From: Ignavibacteriae bacterium HGW-Ignavibacteriae-1
Lineage (GTDB): Bacteria > Bacteroidota > Ignavibacteria > Kapaibacteriales > UBA2268
Length of the DNA: 64,000 nucleotides
NCBI GenBank assembly: GCA_002839825.1
Contig: PGYU01000001.1
Span: forward strand, 186,001 to 250,000
Reading direction: 5' to 3'
This document shows, one piece after another, positions 4,059 through 11,470 of the stretch. The first letter of the stretch is position 1, and each line of letters starts with the position of its first letter. The translations under genes were made by a program, and so were the position numbers. The notes under the pieces are model-generated. The model ran no database searches. It was not told the origin of the DNA and was given only the letters and a program-made list of their open reading frames with translations.

Positions 4059-4736
4059 ATGAAATATTTACTACTTTTTCTATTTCTACTGAGTTATTCA
4101 GTAGCTTTTTCCCAACCTCAAATAGAGATTGAAGGCGATGATATCTATGATTGGGGTCAAATTGACAATAAAGGCAAACCTTTAACTGCGACGGTTAAGA
4201 TTTACAACAAAGGCAATGAAACCCTTAATATCAGTCAAGTTAAACCCGACTGTGGCTGCACGATTGCACCTCTTGACAAAAACATCGTCGAGCCTAACGA
4301 TTTTGCAACACTTTCAATCACATTGCATGTCTATGGTGACGGACCCCTTTACAAATCAATAGTCTTTGAGTCAAACGACCCTAAAACTCCCCATAAGAAT
4401 TTGTCATTGACCGCAGATGTTCAACGTCCGATTGGAGTATCACCCACATATTTTAATTTTGGACTTTTAGAAATAAACAAGGAAGTTCAATCAAGTATCA
4501 GAATTAAGAATAATACTAATGAAAGTATCAAAATTAAAGATATTATCATGGAGCAGGTTGAATTGGTTCTGAATGTAGATGAAACAACCGTTCTCGAAGC
4601 AAAAAGCGACCTTATTATAGTTGCAAAATATACACCTAAGACTCCAACTAACATAACCGGTAAGGTAACTGTGAAAACCGACCTTAAGGAAATGGATGCA
4701 TTTGTAATTTCTGTTTATGGTAAATTTCAAGAATAG
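4059..4736 (+). CDS. DUF1573 domain secreted protein
   Basis: A 225-residue protein with a signal peptide (residues 1-18, cleavage after SVAFS). The mature part starts with an EGDDIYDWGQI strand and carries KPDCGCTIA near residue 66, the paired-Cys signature of DUF1573. A second beta-sandwich of similar type (RPIGVSPTYFNFGLLE...) fills about 125-225, so the protein is two Ig-like ASH/DUF1573 modules. ATG 4059 is preceded by AGGATTT. It has no T9SS sorting tail and is probably periplasmic or surface-exposed. It stands alone on its strand. Function beyond a structural Ig-like role is not known. Confidence 0.8.
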   Translation: MKYLLLFLFLLSYSVAFSQPQIEIEGDDIYDWGQIDNKGKPLTATVKIYNKGNETLNISQVKPDCGCTIAPLDKNIVEPNDFATLSITLHVYGDGPLYKSIVFESNDPKTPHKNLSLTADVQRPIGVSPTYFNFGLLEINKEVQSSIRIKNNTNESIKIKDIIMEQVELVLNVDETTVLEAKSDLIIVAKYTPKTPTNITGKVTVKTDLKEMDAFVISVYGKFQE

Positions 4737-4918
4737 CTTGTAAATTAATAATTAAAAATTAATGTACTTTTTATTTAGCTTGGAAAAACGAAATTAGCAA
4801 ATTTAAATAAGTTAATAGAAACAATAGGCTTATCAAAATATAAATAATATTAAAAATGGAATAATATGTAATGAAACCACAAAGTAATATTAATTATATC
4901 CTGATGTCAAATAGCCAA

Positions 4919-5569
4919 CTAATAAAATGCAGAGAAACTTCCCAAAAATTGGACGGTATGGATATAATCTATCAACTGGAAATCGAATACAAAATTCCCT
5001 GTGAGTTTCTTTTCTTCAGGAAAATAGTTGATTCTCATTCGGGTGATTAAATCCGAGCCCTCAAAACTATATTTTTTATTAACCTGATGATTGAATAATT
5101 CAATCCTCGAGTATCTGCCATCAGCTATGCTATTCAGACTGAAAGACTGATTTGGAATGATTTCGACAGAATCAATTTTGATTTTGAGATACTCTACTCG
5201 GTCAGCATTTTCGACCTTATCATCAACGCCACTTTGTCTAAAAAAGTTCGCCTTCATTTCAAGGTCTAACCAAATAAATACTCTGCCGTTGGAAGTATCA
5301 AGCTTTAGAGAATTATTTATATACGTAATTGAATTGGGCCACTCAGTAATCTGATTTGCTCTTGCAATCTCCTTAAATCTCCAGAGTAGTTCCTTAGCAA
5401 AAATTTGCTTATCAGGCTTGGTAGTATCAATTGGGTCAATTGGCACCTTTTTTACATATGGGTCCGTTCCGAATGTATCTTCACAAGAATTCAATGATAT
5501 TGATAGAAATATCAGGGCTGTCAAAAGTCCAAACTTGATAATATTTTCTTTAAAACTCAGCTTTTTCAT
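4919..5569 (-). CDS. Putative lipoprotein downstream of the ECF sigma operon
   Basis: A 216-residue protein not assignable to a named family. The N-terminus is basic, then hydrophobic, with a lipobox SLNSC at residues 25-29, so Cys29 is the likely lipidated residue. The rest looks like a small beta-rich periplasmic or outer-membrane-anchored domain. It starts 17 bp after the stop of the anti-sigma-like gene, on the same strand, and is probably the third gene of the sigma operon. It may be a surface or periplasmic partner of the barrel-like domain of its neighbour; that is inference from position only. Confidence 0.7.
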   Translation of the reverse strand: MKKLSFKENIIKFGLLTALIFLSISLNSCEDTFGTDPYVKKVPIDPIDTTKPDKQIFAKELLWRFKEIARANQITEWPNSITYINNSLKLDTSNGRVFIWLDLEMKANFFRQSGVDDKVENADRVEYLKIKIDSVEIIPNQSFSLNSIADGRYSRIELFNHQVNKKYSFEGSDLITRMRINYFPEEKKLTGNFVFDFQLIDYIHTVQFLGSFSAFY

Positions 5570-5586
5570 AAAGTAATTCCTTCATT

Positions 5587-6795
5587 TTATGGATTTAAAC
5601 GAATACCGTAATGGAATCCAACTTTAGGTGAATAGAATTTATTTCCCTGATGATTGAACTGAAGGACACTTCCTTCGAGTCCAAATACAACAGAAACCTG
5701 TTCAACGATTTTGTATTCTCCACCAATCATTACTCTTCCAACTCCACCAACCTGATTCAAAGATACAGTGGGTTGCACGAATAAACGTGTTTTTGAGCTG
5801 TTTATAAATGAATAACGTGCTAATATACCCCCACTGACATAATTAGTATGTTGATAATAGTTATAAGAAGTATTCTTTTCATCAACTCCATTATATTTCT
5901 GATAAAAATATTCCTGCCTCACATCTGCACCAACCTGAAAATTATCATTAATTTTATACAATAGTGCAGCAGATGTGTTATTGAAGACAGGATAACTCGA
6001 CCGAGGCATGTCTGCTTTTGGTACTGACCAATCCTCATTTGCTTTGATTTCAACCGAAAATTTTTCACCCAAGAAATTATACATTGAAAAAGGAGCCATT
6101 GGAGTATAAATACTTCCTGAATTGTCAATAAATCGTGCTCCTCTTGAGTACACATCTGAATGCTTATTCAAAGGATTATTAGAATTGCTATAATTCGCAT
6201 AAGTAATTTGATTGAATTTGTCGTTAGCATTTGTAGTTTCCTCCTCTTTTGTGAGATATACAATTCTTTCTGTACCCGGGAGATATTTTACAATTATTCT
6301 ATCTTTATATACTGTATCAATTATATAAGATTCAATTTTCGCGATATTATGATTTGCAGAGGCATCTGAAACTGCCGGCGACTGATGGTTTACAGACATG
6401 TTATTATCGGATGAAGTTATATTGGCACCACTGTCCGATAATCCATTCATCAAAAGAAATGTCAGTAATCCACCGAAAATAAGTGAACCAACACTCAGGA
6501 GAATAGGATTGAGATATTTTGCAATCCAACCACTATAAGTCAAAGCGGTAGTTGCAATAGCACCGCTTGTAACAGCGGCAGTCGTAATACCTAAAGCCCC
6601 GAAAATCTTATCCTGCGATTCAGGTGCAGGCTGAAATGCTTCAAAATCATTTCTGACAGCAAATTCCATATCAATGACTTGTTTGAACTCGGTTCTTAAT
6701 TCATCATTAGATGCCAGTTCCATGAAAAGTCTCTCTTCCTGATGAGAGTCCAAGCTCCTGTCAAATAAATTGTGTAATAATTCAGAATTGTTCAT
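5587..6795 (-). CDS. Anti-sigma-like inner-membrane protein with C-terminal beta-barrel-like domain
   Basis: ATG 6795 is preferred over an upstream in-frame ATG at 6822: it follows GAGGAAAA by five bases and begins 1 bp after the sigma stop. The product is 402 residues. Residues 1-75 are a helical cytoplasmic region (MNNSELLHNLFDRSL, EERLFMELASNDELR) typical of the N-terminus of anti-sigma factors. Hydrophobic segments at about 70-115 hold at least one membrane span. A Ser/Asn-rich linker follows. The last ~170 residues alternate polar and hydrophobic positions, with Gly/Tyr/Phe-rich strands (VGADVRQEYFYQKY, VMIGGEYKIV) as in outer-membrane beta-barrels. An inner-membrane anti-sigma head joined to a barrel-like tail is unusual. 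The tail could instead be a periplasmic beta domain. Confidence 0.7.
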   Translation of the reverse strand: MNNSELLHNLFDRSLDSHQEERLFMELASNDELRTEFKQVIDMEFAVRNDFEAFQPAPESQDKIFGALGITTAAVTSGAIATTALTYSGWIAKYLNPILLSVGSLIFGGLLTFLLMNGLSDSGANITSSDNNMSVNHQSPAVSDASANHNIAKIESYIIDTVYKDRIIVKYLPGTERIVYLTKEEETTNANDKFNQITYANYSNSNNPLNKHSDVYSRGARFIDNSGSIYTPMAPFSMYNFLGEKFSVEIKANEDWSVPKADMPRSSYPVFNNTSAALLYKINDNFQVGADVRQEYFYQKYNGVDEKNTSYNYYQHTNYVSGGILARYSFINSSKTRLFVQPTVSLNQVGGVGRVMIGGEYKIVEQVSVVFGLEGSVLQFNHQGNKFYSPKVGFHYGIRLNP

Positions 6796-6796
6796 T

Positions 6797-7381
6797 TCAG
6801 TTTTCCTCCAATTTAAGTTCACTTGATACTTTTATAGAATAGTAAGGCTTTAATATACTTTTCATTCTTTCTTTTGCTCTGTAAACCCGTTGTCTTGCTG
6901 TTTCGGCACTTATGTTACAAATCTCTGCAATTTCGTTATAACTGAGCCCATCATACATTCTTAATATAAGCGGCTCACGGTATTCAATATCAAGTAAATC
7001 CATTGCTATATGAATATATTTGTATGATTCTTCTTTCTCAACATCGTCGCGGTCAATATACAAATGACAGTCTTCGATTTGGGTTGTATTTTTTCTATCA
7101 CGCAAATAATTAAAACATAAGTTTCTAGCTATGGTAAATAAGAATCCGCTGATAGTGCTGTTTGTCTTCTTAGAATTTACATTCTGATAAAATTTGATAA
7201 AAGAATCCTGAAAAATATCTTCGGTAGCCTGTTTATCGCGCAGCAATTTATAACAATACGCATGCACAGAACCTGCATATCTTTTATATACTACCTTAAA
7301 CGCCTCATCACTGTCAGGCTTGCCGTTTGACAGTAAGTTTAAGAGTTCATTATCTGTTAAATTTTGATAATCCAATCTCAT
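6797..7381 (-). CDS. ECF-type RNA polymerase sigma factor
   Basis: A 194-residue sigma-70-family protein of ECF size. Region 2 spans about 28-95 (AFKVVYKRYAGSVHAYCYKL, EDIFQDSFIKFYQN, then SGFLFTIARNLCFNYLRDRK, which would bind the -10 element). Region 4 spans about 125-180, with a helix-turn-helix in GLSYNEIAEICNISAETARQ and VYRAKERMKSIL. No region 3, as expected for ECF. It is the first gene of a minus-strand operon with the anti-sigma-like gene (1 bp gap) and the lipoprotein. It is divergent from the secreted protein at 7572 across a 190-bp region carrying an inverted repeat, so self-regulation and control of that gene are both plausible. Confidence 0.92.
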   Translation of the reverse strand: MRLDYQNLTDNELLNLLSNGKPDSDEAFKVVYKRYAGSVHAYCYKLLRDKQATEDIFQDSFIKFYQNVNSKKTNSTISGFLFTIARNLCFNYLRDRKNTTQIEDCHLYIDRDDVEKEESYKYIHIAMDLLDIEYREPLILRMYDGLSYNEIAEICNISAETARQRVYRAKERMKSILKPYYSIKVSSELKLEEN

Positions 7382-7432
7382 ACATTTTACTTATTACTAT
7401 TTTAACAATATTATTACACTTGTACTTTGTTT

Positions 7433-7481
7433 TTGTGACAAAAGTAAAAAAAATATTTTTTTATAAATATTTTTGTCACAA
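7433..7481. promoter_or_regulatory. 11-bp inverted repeat between the ECF sigma gene and the divergent secreted-protein gene
   Basis: TTGTGACAAAA at 7433-7443 is the exact reverse complement of TTTTGTCACAA at 7471-7481, with a 27-bp AT-only or nearly AT-only spacer. Each arm overlaps a TAnnTTTG-like -7 sequence facing outward or inward (TATTTTTG at 7468-7475 on plus; TACTTTTG at 7446-7439 on minus). The symmetry suggests two promoters with the same recognition sequence, or a dimeric regulator site, serving both the sigma operon and the gene at 7572. The rest of the 190-bp gap shows an AGGAG ribosome site just before 7572. Confidence 0.55.
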
Positions 7482-7571
7482 TATTCAATACGTTGTGTAA
7501 TTGTTTATGTTACCGTTCACCGATGAGAAAAAGAAAATAAATTTTTTTAAAGTAATTTTAGGAGTTTCAAA

Positions 7572-9869
7572 ATGAAAAGGTTTCAAAATTCTATGCTAAT
7601 GCTTATCGCATTTAGTATGTTCGCACTACTGGCAGTAAAAATGACTGCACAACAGGCATCACCTCAGCCGCAAGAGGTATTCGCATTTTACTACTCACCG
7701 GATAAACTACTGGGAGTTGAATGGCAAATTTTCGAAAGGAATGATGAGATTACCGGATTTAGTTGCACTATTCAGAAATTTGAAAAGGATAGTACATTAA
7801 GTCATTTACTCGACTTTGAATTCGCTATAGACGATGAAAATCTTTTCTTCAAAGATATTGGAGAAAATATTGTCTATTACAACTTCTACAAATATGACCT
7901 TGATTTAGAACCCGGGATGTATGAACTGAAAGTGAAGTCCAAAAGTGAAAATGGAGAAAGCCAGCCATCAGCAAGTACTTATCTATGGTATGATAAAGAT
8001 GAGTACAAGAATGACATTTATTTTACCGAATATCCCGAAATGTACGCTTCTGTCGGTAAATTATATCAGTCTCACGTCAAAGCACAGTCATACGATAATG
8101 ACAAAACAATCAAATACTCTTTGACTGAAGCACCACAAGGCATGACCATTAACGAAGATTCAGGGCTAATAGAATTCACACCAACGGAAAGTGGAAATCC
8201 ATATTTCGTAGTTAGAGCAACTAATGCAGCTGATCCAACTGAATACCTGGAAATGTATTTTGTACTAACTGTTGTCGATTGCCAAAATCTCGCTAATATT
8301 ACCGGCAAAATCATCTATGATGAGTCGGTAGAAAACAAAATAGGAATCATTCTTGCTTATCAAATTGCGGCTGATGGTTCTATAAATCAGGCAGGCGGTA
8401 TGGATGTTTACGACCAAGGTGATTTCAACCTAACACTTGATAAGGGTTCATATTATATTTATTTCATGTTATTCGACAAATTCGATGACAATGAATTTTA
8501 TAATCAAGGAGAATGGTACAAGGATGCTTTAACAATGGAGCAAGCTGAGCTAATTACTGTTGATTGCGGCGAAACTGTATCAATTGAGATGTTGGTCGGT
8601 GACCAAATGGAATTCACGAAGTACAAAGTGTCAGGTACAGTTACTTTGAAAGACGGTACAGTTTTATCAAATTCGATTGTTGTATTCGAATCTGTAAATA
8701 ATGATAATGACTCTACATTTTGGGGTGGCTATCAAAAATCTGTAGAAACTGATGAAAATGGTTACTACGAAGTTCTTTTACCTGATTTATTCAATTATAC
8801 AGCTTTCTGCTTTGTAAGCGAAAGCAAAAATCCGGGTGTATACAGACCTCAGTACTGGAAAAATACTTATAATCCGTTTGAAGCAACAGTTATCGAACTG
8901 ACCGCAGATATAAGTGGTATTGATTTCGTATTTGATGAAGATGACATCAATTATCCTGATGGAAGTATCTCAGGCAAAGTTATGAGCTCGGATAATATAC
9001 CACTTGAAGGCGCTTTTGTCATAGCATTTTTGGTTAAATCATTCGACGGCGAACCCAATAGTGATTTATATCAGGGATTTGCTGCTATTACAGATGAAGA
9101 AGGCGAATATAAGTTCGAATATATGAACTATGGTGAATACATTGTGTTTGCTTACCCCAATGATATGAACTATACTCCCGGCTTTTACCGTGAAAATAAT
9201 GTAGCTGCTCTGACTTGGGAAGATGCTTCGATTATTAAGCATGATGGTTTTACTCCTTTGAAAGAAAGAAACATTATTCTTCCAGTAATCGAAGCAGTAC
9301 AAGGTATTGGTCTAATCGAAGGTGAAGTAACATCAACAGGTGGTGGAATCAGAAACGACGTAGTTGGTGAAGCAATTTCAGGTGCTTCAATATTCTTAGT
9401 GAATGAAAGCGGTGCAACAAACAAATACAACAAAAGCTCAAACAACGGAATTTATCGTTTAACAGGAATTGCAGCCGGCAACTATCAACTTATAGTTGAT
9501 AAAGTTGGTTACAAAAGTCATAAAGAATGGGTTGAAGTGGGCGAAGACGGTGTTATAGACGGACATGACATTCAATTATCACCCGAATCAGTTAGCTCTG
9601 TCGAAGATAATACCACCACATTAGGATTGAATGTATTTCCAAATCCTGCAAGCAGCGAAATTCAGTTGACAGTCAACTCGACTACAACCAATCTTACAGT
9701 TGAAGTTTACAACATGATAGGTGTTAAAATTCTGTACCAAAGTATCAATTCTGTAATCGGCAACGGTACTTATAGCTTGGATGTATCAGACCTGAATCCA
9801 GGAATGTATATAATTAAAGTAATTGATGGTCAGAAAAATACAATTGACAAAATCATAATTAACAGATAA
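7572..9869 (+). CDS. T9SS-secreted multidomain protein with carboxypeptidase-regulatory-like domains
   Basis: A 765-residue protein. Signal peptide 1-27 ends at VKMTAQQ. An Ig-like putative binding module lies at about 155-237 (YSLTEAPQGMTINEDSG, IEFTPTESGNPYFVVRA). Three or four CnaB/carboxypeptidase-regulatory-like beta-sandwiches fill about 240-675, each opening with a G-x-(I/V) strand and containing DENGYYEV, DEEGEYKFEY or NNGIYRLTGI turns. The last ~80 residues form a T9SS type A sorting domain (LNVFPNPASSEIQL ... GMYIIKV ... IIINR). ATG 7572 follows AGGAG. It is divergent from the ECF sigma operon and is the best candidate target of that sigma. A terminator follows. Confidence 0.85.
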   Translation: MKRFQNSMLMLIAFSMFALLAVKMTAQQASPQPQEVFAFYYSPDKLLGVEWQIFERNDEITGFSCTIQKFEKDSTLSHLLDFEFAIDDENLFFKDIGENIVYYNFYKYDLDLEPGMYELKVKSKSENGESQPSASTYLWYDKDEYKNDIYFTEYPEMYASVGKLYQSHVKAQSYDNDKTIKYSLTEAPQGMTINEDSGLIEFTPTESGNPYFVVRATNAADPTEYLEMYFVLTVVDCQNLANITGKIIYDESVENKIGIILAYQIAADGSINQAGGMDVYDQGDFNLTLDKGSYYIYFMLFDKFDDNEFYNQGEWYKDALTMEQAELITVDCGETVSIEMLVGDQMEFTKYKVSGTVTLKDGTVLSNSIVVFESVNNDNDSTFWGGYQKSVETDENGYYEVLLPDLFNYTAFCFVSESKNPGVYRPQYWKNTYNPFEATVIELTADISGIDFVFDEDDINYPDGSISGKVMSSDNIPLEGAFVIAFLVKSFDGEPNSDLYQGFAAITDEEGEYKFEYMNYGEYIVFAYPNDMNYTPGFYRENNVAALTWEDASIIKHDGFTPLKERNIILPVIEAVQGIGLIEGEVTSTGGGIRNDVVGEAISGASIFLVNESGATNKYNKSSNNGIYRLTGIAAGNYQLIVDKVGYKSHKEWVEVGEDGVIDGHDIQLSPESVSSVEDNTTTLGLNVFPNPASSEIQLTVNSTTTNLTVEVYNMIGVKILYQSINSVIGNGTYSLDVSDLNPGMYIIKVIDGQKNTIDKIIINR

Positions 9870-9890
9870 TTTTTCTCTCGGTAGAACGAT

Positions 9891-9928
9891 AGCCTGGTAG
9901 TAAGCAATTACTGCCAGGCTTTTTTTTG
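9891..9928 (+). terminator. Rho-independent terminator after the T9SS protein
   Basis: AGCCTGGTAG (9891-9900) pairs with CTGCCAGGCT (9911-9920) through one G-U pair and a 10-nt loop, followed by a run of eight T. It lies 22 bp after the stop of the gene ending at 9869, and in front of the 3' end of the convergent gene at 9949. Confidence 0.9.
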
Positions 9929-9948
9929 TTTCCAACATATTACCAAAA

Positions 9949-11382
9949 TTATTTCACAATCTTGATAATCTGATTTTCTATGTGTGTCGGAGTTCGCAGC
10001 TGAAGATAATATTGTCCGGTGCTTAGTAGTTTTGTGTCTATATAATGATTTTGGATGCCATTTAGGGGAGAGGCAGTGCTGAAAACAGTTAAAACTTTTT
10101 CTCCCATAGTGTTGTATATTACTAACTCAGTCATCCCGCTTTCGATTAAAGAGACTGCAATTTCAAGATTATCATCAGCGGGATTTGGTGCTATGCTCAA
10201 AATTCCAGCTTTTGAATATGGATTTAACAGTCGTGTACCGCCTTCGTAGCAGACTCCCAATAATCTGAAATGCCCACTTTGGAGCGTTATATCCGCATCG
10301 CCACCATTTGCAATAGGATTGACTAATGTGATATCACACGTTTCAGCATTACCCAAACCTACGATGAATGCAACTTCGCCCAATATTTCACCTGCTGATT
10401 TATTTGCAGGTAAATCTTTAATTAATACTTTTGCAAGATTCTCATTAATTATTTCCATATTTAAATTTTGCGGATAAAGTAATGTCGGATTAAATGTCAT
10501 CTCAACATCAATCGTATTTACCGAGGATAAACTCAAATCAACTTCGTAATCCAAAATTATTGGGATATTAATTAAATCGCCTGCATAAGCTTCAATTTCT
10601 ATAGTTTTTAATTGTGCTGAAGCAACTCCCATGAACTTACCTTCGCCGAAAAGTTGGACCACCGCCGGACTGCCGACGCCATCATAATGAAATTCGAGAG
10701 TACCGCTCGTTCTGCCGGGCGAATTAGCAGTAAATCTCAAATCCATCATTGCTTCCTGCCCGGGTTGAAGAATGAAATTCCCACCACCACTAAGTGTCGA
10801 AAAATCAACAACGTTCGGGTAATTATGCTTTGTATCTAATATTTCGAGCGGTGCATTTCCAATATTTTTGACAGTTACCGCTTGCAAGGAATCAATAAAA
10901 TCTCCAACTTGAATAGTTCCGAAATCCATAATGGAATTGACGATTTCTAACTTTGGTTCAACGCCTTCGCCGATAATATTTTGTACGATTGTCTCTGCTT
11001 GTGTGACGATTACAATCTCAGCCCTATGAATTCCAACTCTATTTGGAATGAATCTGAACTCTCCGAAATAACTATCGCTTGGTTCAATTGTATAAACAGG
11101 AAATCCGCCGACAAGGGAGAATGCAGAAGCATCAGCACCTTGGATATAGATGGAGTCAATCCTACAAGGGTATTTTCCAGGATTCTGAATAAAATCCGAT
11201 ACAACTGAATCCTTTGAGTTTGAAACTATCACTTTTTCCATATCTATGTTCTGGGCAGTAGCATAGGGCGCTACGATGGACCATACTGCATCAGATTCAT
11301 CTGATTGGAACTGTGTAAAGCTGAAATTGTAATTGAGAATAAATATAGTTGTAATAATTCCAAGTTTTATTATATTTTTCAT
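9949..11382 (-). CDS. T9SS-secreted anchor-D-like protein, paralogue of the C-terminal part of the gene at 1-3756
   Basis: ATG 11382 is preferred to 11397: AAAGG lies nine bases upstream, and the signal peptide (MKNIIKLGI...NFSFTQ) then has normal length. The product is 477 residues. From residue ~25 (QSDESDAV) it matches the large VWA protein nearly residue for residue (DSIYIQGADASAFSL, FGEFRF.PNRVGIHRAE, IIGEGV.P). The fold is a series of Ig-like beta-sandwiches of the choice-of-anchor-D type (GTIQVGDF, TSGTLEFHYDGVGSPAV). The last ~80 residues are a T9SS type A sorting domain (LSIAPNPADDNLEI ... GQYYLQL ... IIKIVK). It starts 88 bp after the stop of the VWA/FISUMP gene on the same strand and is probably cotranscribed with it. 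Confidence 0.85.
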   Translation of the reverse strand: MKNIIKLGIITTIFILNYNFSFTQFQSDESDAVWSIVAPYATAQNIDMEKVIVSNSKDSVVSDFIQNPGKYPCRIDSIYIQGADASAFSLVGGFPVYTIEPSDSYFGEFRFIPNRVGIHRAEIVIVTQAETIVQNIIGEGVEPKLEIVNSIMDFGTIQVGDFIDSLQAVTVKNIGNAPLEILDTKHNYPNVVDFSTLSGGGNFILQPGQEAMMDLRFTANSPGRTSGTLEFHYDGVGSPAVVQLFGEGKFMGVASAQLKTIEIEAYAGDLINIPIILDYEVDLSLSSVNTIDVEMTFNPTLLYPQNLNMEIINENLAKVLIKDLPANKSAGEILGEVAFIVGLGNAETCDITLVNPIANGGDADITLQSGHFRLLGVCYEGGTRLLNPYSKAGILSIAPNPADDNLEIAVSLIESGMTELVIYNTMGEKVLTVFSTASPLNGIQNHYIDTKLLSTGQYYLQLRTPTHIENQIIKIVK

Positions 11383-11470
11383 TCTAATACCTTTCATAGT
11401 TTGATTCTCTTTTTCAAATTCCTAATAATTCCTTAATAATAATTTTATATTCTTCACATAAACCAATATT

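Follow-up and report, generated by a model that had tools for sequence, protein, structure and literature searches.

A predicted anti-sigma factor reaching from the cytoplasm to the outer membrane, encoded behind an ECF sigma gene in Ignavibacteriae bacterium HGW-Ignavibacteriae-1

A 64,000-nucleotide stretch of contig PGYU01000001.1 from Ignavibacteriae bacterium HGW-Ignavibacteriae-1 (hereafter the window; all coordinates are positions within it) encodes, directly behind a gene for an extracytoplasmic function (ECF) sigma factor, a 402-residue protein (5587-6795, minus strand) that is predicted to run as one chain from the cytoplasm to the outer membrane (OM). It joins a helical anti-sigma-like head, a single inner-membrane span, a variable periplasmic linker and a C-terminal eight-stranded OM β-barrel. 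We consider it probable that the two proteins form an autoregulated envelope-sensing switch. The architecture, the barrel fold, the conserved linkage to a sigma gene and the shared promoter-like boxes are read from the sequence or from prediction. Anti-sigma factors of this architecture have already been published for Bacteroides and Phocaeicola, and the idea is thus not new in kind.

Four open reading frames (ORFs) were re-found where a preliminary description of the DNA had placed them, and each has the character given there: an ECF sigma factor, the coupled fused protein, a lipoprotein and a divergent secreted protein. The presumed cognate sigma factor (6797-7381, minus strand, 194 residues) matches Sigma70_r2 (2e-14) and r4_2 (1e-13) in Pfam and sigma70-ECF (7e-26) in NCBIfam. 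The fused ORF has its ATG at 6795, one base past the sigma stop, and an alternative GTG start is open at 6822. The head occupies residues 1-70 (6586-6795, minus strand). Full-length AlphaFold2 modelling places helices there, at low confidence, at residues 3-11, 17-29, 31-52 and 59-67, and the anti-sigma-like assignment also draws on domain matches within the family and on the correlation of head and sigma distances (see below). Pfam RseA_N is matched by two of the 36 distinct family members (best 6e-6) and NCBIfam antisigma by three; the window member matches neither. The inner-membrane span (residues 98-116; 6448-6504, minus strand) has a hydropathy of 2.31 and lies in an AlphaFold2 helix (residues 91-123), and a 19-residue stretch with a hydropathy of at least 1.6 is present in all 36 members. 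The linker (residues 117-244; 6064-6447, minus strand) is hardly conserved in the family alignment; its length is 127 residues in the window protein, with a median of 130.5 and a range of 106-184 across the 36 members.

The C-terminal tail (residues 246-400; 5596-6060, minus strand) is predicted to form an OM barrel with eight antiparallel membrane strands and an OmpA/OprF/NspA-like fold. The AlphaFold2 model of the tail alone, built like the full-length model on a two-sequence alignment, has eight strands, a predicted local distance difference test score (pLDDT) of 79.5 and a predicted template modelling score (pTM) of 0.73; the eight strands are visible already in the poor full-length model. 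Structural comparison of the tail model by Foldseek and VIA-align gave a designed transmembrane barrel as the top match (Z 18.3), followed by OprF-N (Z 17.6, root-mean-square deviation 2.4, 120 aligned residues), Legionella porin III (Z 17.1), OmpA (Z 12.8-16.7, depending on the entry), NspA (Z 16.2) and OmpW (Z up to 15.3). In six of the eight strands, alternate positions are separated by more than 1 in mean hydropathy. The C-termini of the family resemble those of outer-membrane proteins (OMPs): the last residue is F or Y in 24 of the 36 members and F, Y or L in 33, and 32 fit [YFWLIV]-x-[FLYW], with a strict aromatic-x-aromatic end in 17. Pfam OMP_b-brl is matched by four members, and a search of solved structures by sequence with the family profile found no relative (best E 0.23). 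The strand pattern of an OM barrel, noticed in the tail at the outset, is thus borne out by structure prediction.

Head and tail are joined in every protein read from the window's order. Of the 60 genomes searched, which comprise the window's own and relatives sharing its genus, family or order, 55 contain matches at E ≤ 0.01; the window's genome contains 11 matching stretches in eight ORFs, i.e. the family is multi-copy. The 38 best-scoring loci were read, eight from the window's own genome, 29 from the 60-genome search and one from a further relative. Removal of duplicates (L008 equals L003, L013 equals L038, and the window stands for L001) left 36 distinct proteins, among which L021 and L022 were kept although close to L003 and L002. 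All 36 have head and tail in one ORF, and in their alignment both parts are conserved and the span and linker vary. Directly upstream, on the same strand, lies an ECF sigma gene in every one of the 38 loci (gaps of -26 to 102 nucleotides, the -26 being the window with its GTG start; from the ATG the gap is 1), which confirms that the module is more than a chance arrangement. Pairwise distances correlate between head and sigma (r 0.69), tail and sigma (0.39) and head and tail (0.37), and none of 2000 permutations reached these values (maxima 0.31, 0.32 and 0.28, respectively). The higher head-sigma correlation fits the expectation for a sigma-binding head; shared descent adds to all three. Among 395 sampled genomes of the phylum, 79 match the family profile at E ≤ 1e-5, and the full-length matches, among those listed, are all from genomes of the window's family or order. 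Another family of the class contributes three loci in two genomes (L089-L091) that encode fused proteins of 442-480 residues beside a sigma gene. The window's own genome has seven paralogous loci of sigma and fused anti-sigma genes besides that of the window (L073-L079); L073 comes after a gene for a type IX secretion system (T9SS) protein with an N-glycanase-like domain.

Barrel-less versions of the head occur in other orders. In eight chosen loci from other orders of the class (L080-L087), the same head constitutes a protein of 153-159 residues whose gene adjoins a sigma gene, or in L080 lies one gene away. The downstream genes encode TonB_C proteins in six of six cases tested, and a PDZ-containing M50 (RseP-like) protease is encoded 1-4 kb away in three of three loci tested (L081, L083 and L087). 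These barrel-less loci with a nearby RseP-like protease suggest that the head is that of an RseA-like anti-sigma factor which intramembrane proteolysis sets free, and that the window's lineage gained the barrel later; the fused form would then have followed a head-only one.

Sigma operon and divergent gene are preceded by the same ECF-type promoter-like site. TTGTCAC-N15-GTGTAAT stands before the sigma operon (7413-7441, minus strand) and, with both boxes and the spacing repeated exactly, faces the gene of a T9SS-secreted multidomain protein (site 7473-7501, plus strand). This putative sigma target (7572-9869, plus strand, 765 residues) begins 190 bases from the sigma start and contains three CarboxypepD_reg stretches, a putative immunoglobulin-like (Ig) match (He_PIG, 3e-5) and a Por_Secre_tail (6e-14; all Pfam). 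The two sites are the only exact copies in the 3.2 Mb genome, and with up to two mismatches 33 genome sites were found versus 13 for a reversed control; as the pattern was derived from the two sites themselves, these counts speak for rarity, not function. Of 35 family sigma genes, 28 have a GTGT box no more than 120 nucleotides upstream (shuffles: mean 12, maximum 18) and 18 have GTGT[ATC]A there (shuffles: mean 3.8, maximum 9), both boxes having been picked after viewing the same upstream sequences (L005, with too little upstream sequence, was excluded). The ortholog L009 has TTGTCAC-N14-GTGTAAT before its sigma gene. The degenerate form TTGTNAC-N14-16-GTGTNAT has eight genome sites versus two in the reversed control: the window pair, three before ORFs, one inside an ORF, one with no ORF within 260 nucleotides, and L131. 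The three before ORFs read TTGTAAC-N15-GTGTTAT and stand 48, 68 and 6 nucleotides ahead of them (L104, L118 and L119, respectively; the 6-nucleotide case is doubtful); the starts of these ORFs, judged by eye, resemble secretion signals; the L104 product combines a Por_Secre_tail with a C-type lectin domain. These three genes perhaps belong to the regulon of a paralogous sigma factor. The window sigma, and perhaps its paralogs too, may drive the expression of secreted surface cargo.

Pardue and colleagues (PMC13088901) present Dma1, whose partner is an ECF21 sigma factor, as the first member of a class of anti-sigma factors whose domains extend from the outer membrane into the cytosol; they further report that Dma1 and Dma2 have roles in vesicle formation. 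Evans and colleagues (PMC9308784) predict that a Phocaeicola anti-sigma factor spans the periplasm and ends in a C-terminal OM barrel; its sigma partner is toxin-induced, which they ascribe to envelope stress. According to both papers, the Bacteroides and Phocaeicola proteins of this plan act as anti-sigma factors. Three further papers mention or cite these systems. The initial proposal that one polypeptide links the envelope to the sigma factor stands in its plan, a cytoplasmic head and an OM barrel being backed by structure prediction, conservation and sigma adjacency, but the plan was already in print. Among the papers listed by literature searches for it elsewhere (15 of 60 in one of them), none concerns this lineage.

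The window protein is predicted to follow the Dma plan of N-terminal anti-sigma domain, inner-membrane span and C-terminal OM barrel, with a weakly supported head fold. Like Dma1/Das1 and Dma2/Das2 of Bacteroides thetaiotaomicron, it is a single cytosol-to-OM polypeptide next to an ECF sigma factor, with further genes in the operon and several copies per genome. In contrast to Dma, the membrane span of the window family lies at about residue 98 (median), versus residues 42-71 in 19 of 20 Bacteroidia proteins and 94 in one; the divergent neighbour in the window is a T9SS cargo protein, and the window's genome has no NigD_N match. The same differences set it apart from EcfO-Reo of B. fragilis and M0N98_03760-61 of Phocaeicola vulgatus, which share the predicted periplasm-crossing anti-sigma factor with a C-terminal OM barrel but where the reported changes include NigD genes and a longer O-antigen (PMC9308784). 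With RseA of the sigma-E (DegS-RseP) system the window protein has in common a helical N-terminal anti-sigma domain and one membrane span; RseA_N is matched by the two family members noted above and not by the window protein. RseA has no OM barrel and terminates in a periplasmic domain to which RseB binds. FecR-type systems with a TonB-dependent transducer also tie an OM barrel to ECF sigma release, but there barrel and anti-sigma factor are separate proteins. The preliminary description took anti-sigma factors normally to depend on separate TonB receptors, which is correct for FecR-type cell-surface signalling and not for anti-sigma factors of the RseA type.

Bacteroidia proteins of the same plan were compared with the window family in place of the B. 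thetaiotaomicron Dma sequences. The comparison set was built up from the two of 296 genomes that have NigD genes. Both encode a fused ORF of 409-425 residues behind an ECF sigma gene oriented away from NigD, at a distance of a few hundred bases, and a profile of four such Bacteroidia proteins matches 65 of the 395 genomes. Of 30 loci, mostly from Bacteroidia (L164-L193), 20 have behind an ECF sigma gene an ORF of 369-566 residues with a predicted span; many of these ORFs have OMP-like C-termini. Such proteins suggest that the Dma plan extends beyond Bacteroides. The 20 loci with an ORF of at least 300 residues, together with L155 and L158, made 22; the comparison drew on 17 of their heads and on 11 or 17 tails, five being omitted by eye. 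HHalign gave probabilities of 0.1-0.4% for window-family versus Bacteroidia heads and 2.1-15.5% for the tails, as against controls of 98.4% (family versus barrel-less heads), 99.2% (versus L089-L091 heads) and 96.7% (tails versus the other fused tails), all three control sets having been gathered with the window family's own profile. Against eight OMP_b-brl_2 stretches from the window's genome, the Bacteroidia tails reach 95.7-96.4% (57.4% if only four sequences are taken), whereas the window family's tails, despite their predicted OM-barrel fold, were negative in that comparison (7.7%). The family head and tail hidden Markov models (HMMs) had no match at E ≤ 10 among the ORFs of 30 Bacteroidia sigma loci, and the Bacteroidia profile, with no match in the window's genome, hit just one genome of the same order (G052, 6e-4, across the span and linker). 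A tree of 90 sigma factors places all 16 partners of Bacteroidia Dma-like proteins in a 17-leaf group (support 0.99), whereas the 36 window-type sigmas fall in a separate 38-leaf group (support 0.66), the groups being those of this tree.

Because homology of heads and tails went undetected and the sigma groups are separate, we set the window family apart from Dma, although it would work like Dma; we read it as a second lineage, possibly one assembled independently, undetected homology being no proof of separate origin. A more far-reaching reading, to which we give somewhat less than an even chance, is that the inner-to-outer-membrane anti-sigma factor was invented at least twice in the phylum, here from an RseA-like head and a barrel unrelated to those of the Bacteroidia Dma-like proteins, with the barrel reporting the state of the OM and the switch feeding T9SS cargo. 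It is possible, though less likely than not, that the mechanism is the same but the origin different, the window proteins being true Dma family members diverged past recognition from a fusion with a single origin, passed on within the phylum. The order of parts and the sigma adjacency are alike, the linkers of the four Bacteroidia proteins measured (123-127 residues, tail starts set by eye) are close to the 127 of the window protein, all are found within the sampled phylum, and eight-stranded barrels are short and diverge fast. A common origin sits poorly, however, with the low HHalign values beside their high controls (these gathered as stated), the blank HMM searches, the OMP_b-brl_2 affinity of the Bacteroidia tails and the different clades of the partner sigmas.

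For the switch itself, we infer OM insertion, sigma binding, proteolytic release and a regulon as follows. The head would tether the ECF sigma factor to the inner membrane, which a single helix would cross; the linker of about 127 residues would span the periplasm and the barrel would sit in the OM. A change at the OM (ligand, damage or failed barrel assembly) would be relayed along the same chain and the head set free, most probably through regulated proteolysis within or close to the membrane span, with release of sigma. Freed sigma would then transcribe its own operon (sigma, anti-sigma and lipoprotein) and the divergent T9SS gene from identical promoters. The barrel might instead be a ligand-free sentinel of OM assembly that, while uninserted, exposes a C-terminal OMP signal to a DegS-like protease cutting the same chain. 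In the logic of DegS, this would put RseA and its unfolded-OMP trigger into one molecule. RseA-like matches in a few members, the OMP-like C-termini and the toxin induction of the Phocaeicola sigma partner, ascribed to envelope stress by Evans and colleagues (PMC9308784), all point that way, but fewer than half of the members have the strict aromatic-x-aromatic end and the window protein terminates in LNP, and we regard such a sentinel as rather unlikely. The preliminary description had also allowed for a periplasmic mimic, that is, a soluble β-barrel resembling an OMP. Soluble eight-stranded folds do match the tail model (two designed barrels at Z 13.5-13.6, avidin-like folds at about Z 12), but they rank below OprF-N, Legionella porin III and the best OmpA entries, which are the best natural matches; this, the alternating hydropathy of the strands and the OMP-like C-termini make a soluble tail very improbable.

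Several points weigh against an autoregulated, membrane-to-membrane switch. It demands that one protein be anchored in the inner membrane and also assembled in the outer one. The window protein has no significant Pfam or NCBIfam match, neither to a barrel nor to an anti-sigma family; the few domain matches at family level are accompanied by scattered unrelated ones (HMG-CoA_red in two of the 36 members, 4e-4); the full-length AlphaFold2 model is poor (pLDDT 40.8, pTM 0.37), leaving the head fold weakly supported, and the alignments behind both models were shallow, as stated; and the window protein, with P as its last residue, is an exception to the C-terminal pattern of its family. As for the promoter-like sites, whose scan pattern and upstream boxes were chosen from the sequences they describe, the divergent pair is no more alike over the whole 29-base span than shuffles are (best 19 identities; 40 shuffles, mean 19.45, maximum 22). 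A repeated 7+7 pair with at least five G/C occurred in 4 of 2000 shuffles, and in 400 of 2000 once the G/C condition, a later choice, was dropped. In the closest orthologous sigma locus (L072) no divergent gene, T9SS or other, lies beside sigma, so that the case for a shared promoter comes from the window locus. The paralogous L074 is divergent from a gene for a protein with a TonB-receptor plug domain, and TonB-linked signalling is possible for some copies. Finally, the window's genome has two M50 protease matches, but such proteases are present in 14 of 14 control genomes and their presence is little informative.

The third gene of the operon, 17 nucleotides behind the anti-sigma gene (4919-5569, minus strand, 216 residues), encodes a lipoprotein-like product with the lipobox-like sequence LNSC-EDTFGTDP and its Cys at residue 29. 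An ORF of at least 90 residues lies within 300 nucleotides downstream of the fused gene in 32 of the 36 loci, and in 25 the next gene encodes a lipoprotein-like product, in which the lipobox is often followed by C-[EKT]-D-x-[LF]-G. In a background of 127 ORFs with 190 residues or more, drawn from 20 larger loci that had not been cleared of such genes, 16 are lipobox-like. In the other 11 loci, seven next ORFs fail the lipobox test (one a doubtful ORF of 94 residues) and four have no next ORF. Eight of the downstream proteins match the window lipoprotein at E < 1e-5. We speculate that the lipoprotein is a surface or periplasmic partner of the switch. Among the six window proteins scanned (4059-11397), none has a FecR or TonB-receptor match in Pfam. 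Beside the module, 9949-11397 (minus strand) encodes a large secreted-looking protein with HYDIN/ASH-like Ig matches and a T9SS tail.

If a single chain from cytoplasm to OM arose twice, spanning both membranes would be a recurrent solution to OM sensing and not an oddity of Bacteroides. The multi-copy family and its apparently autoregulated promoter mean that regulons might be predictable from sequence, and the module may tie ECF sigma control to the expression of T9SS cargo in a poorly studied lineage. It also raises a testable question: how one protein enters both membranes, and how its sigma factor is let go.

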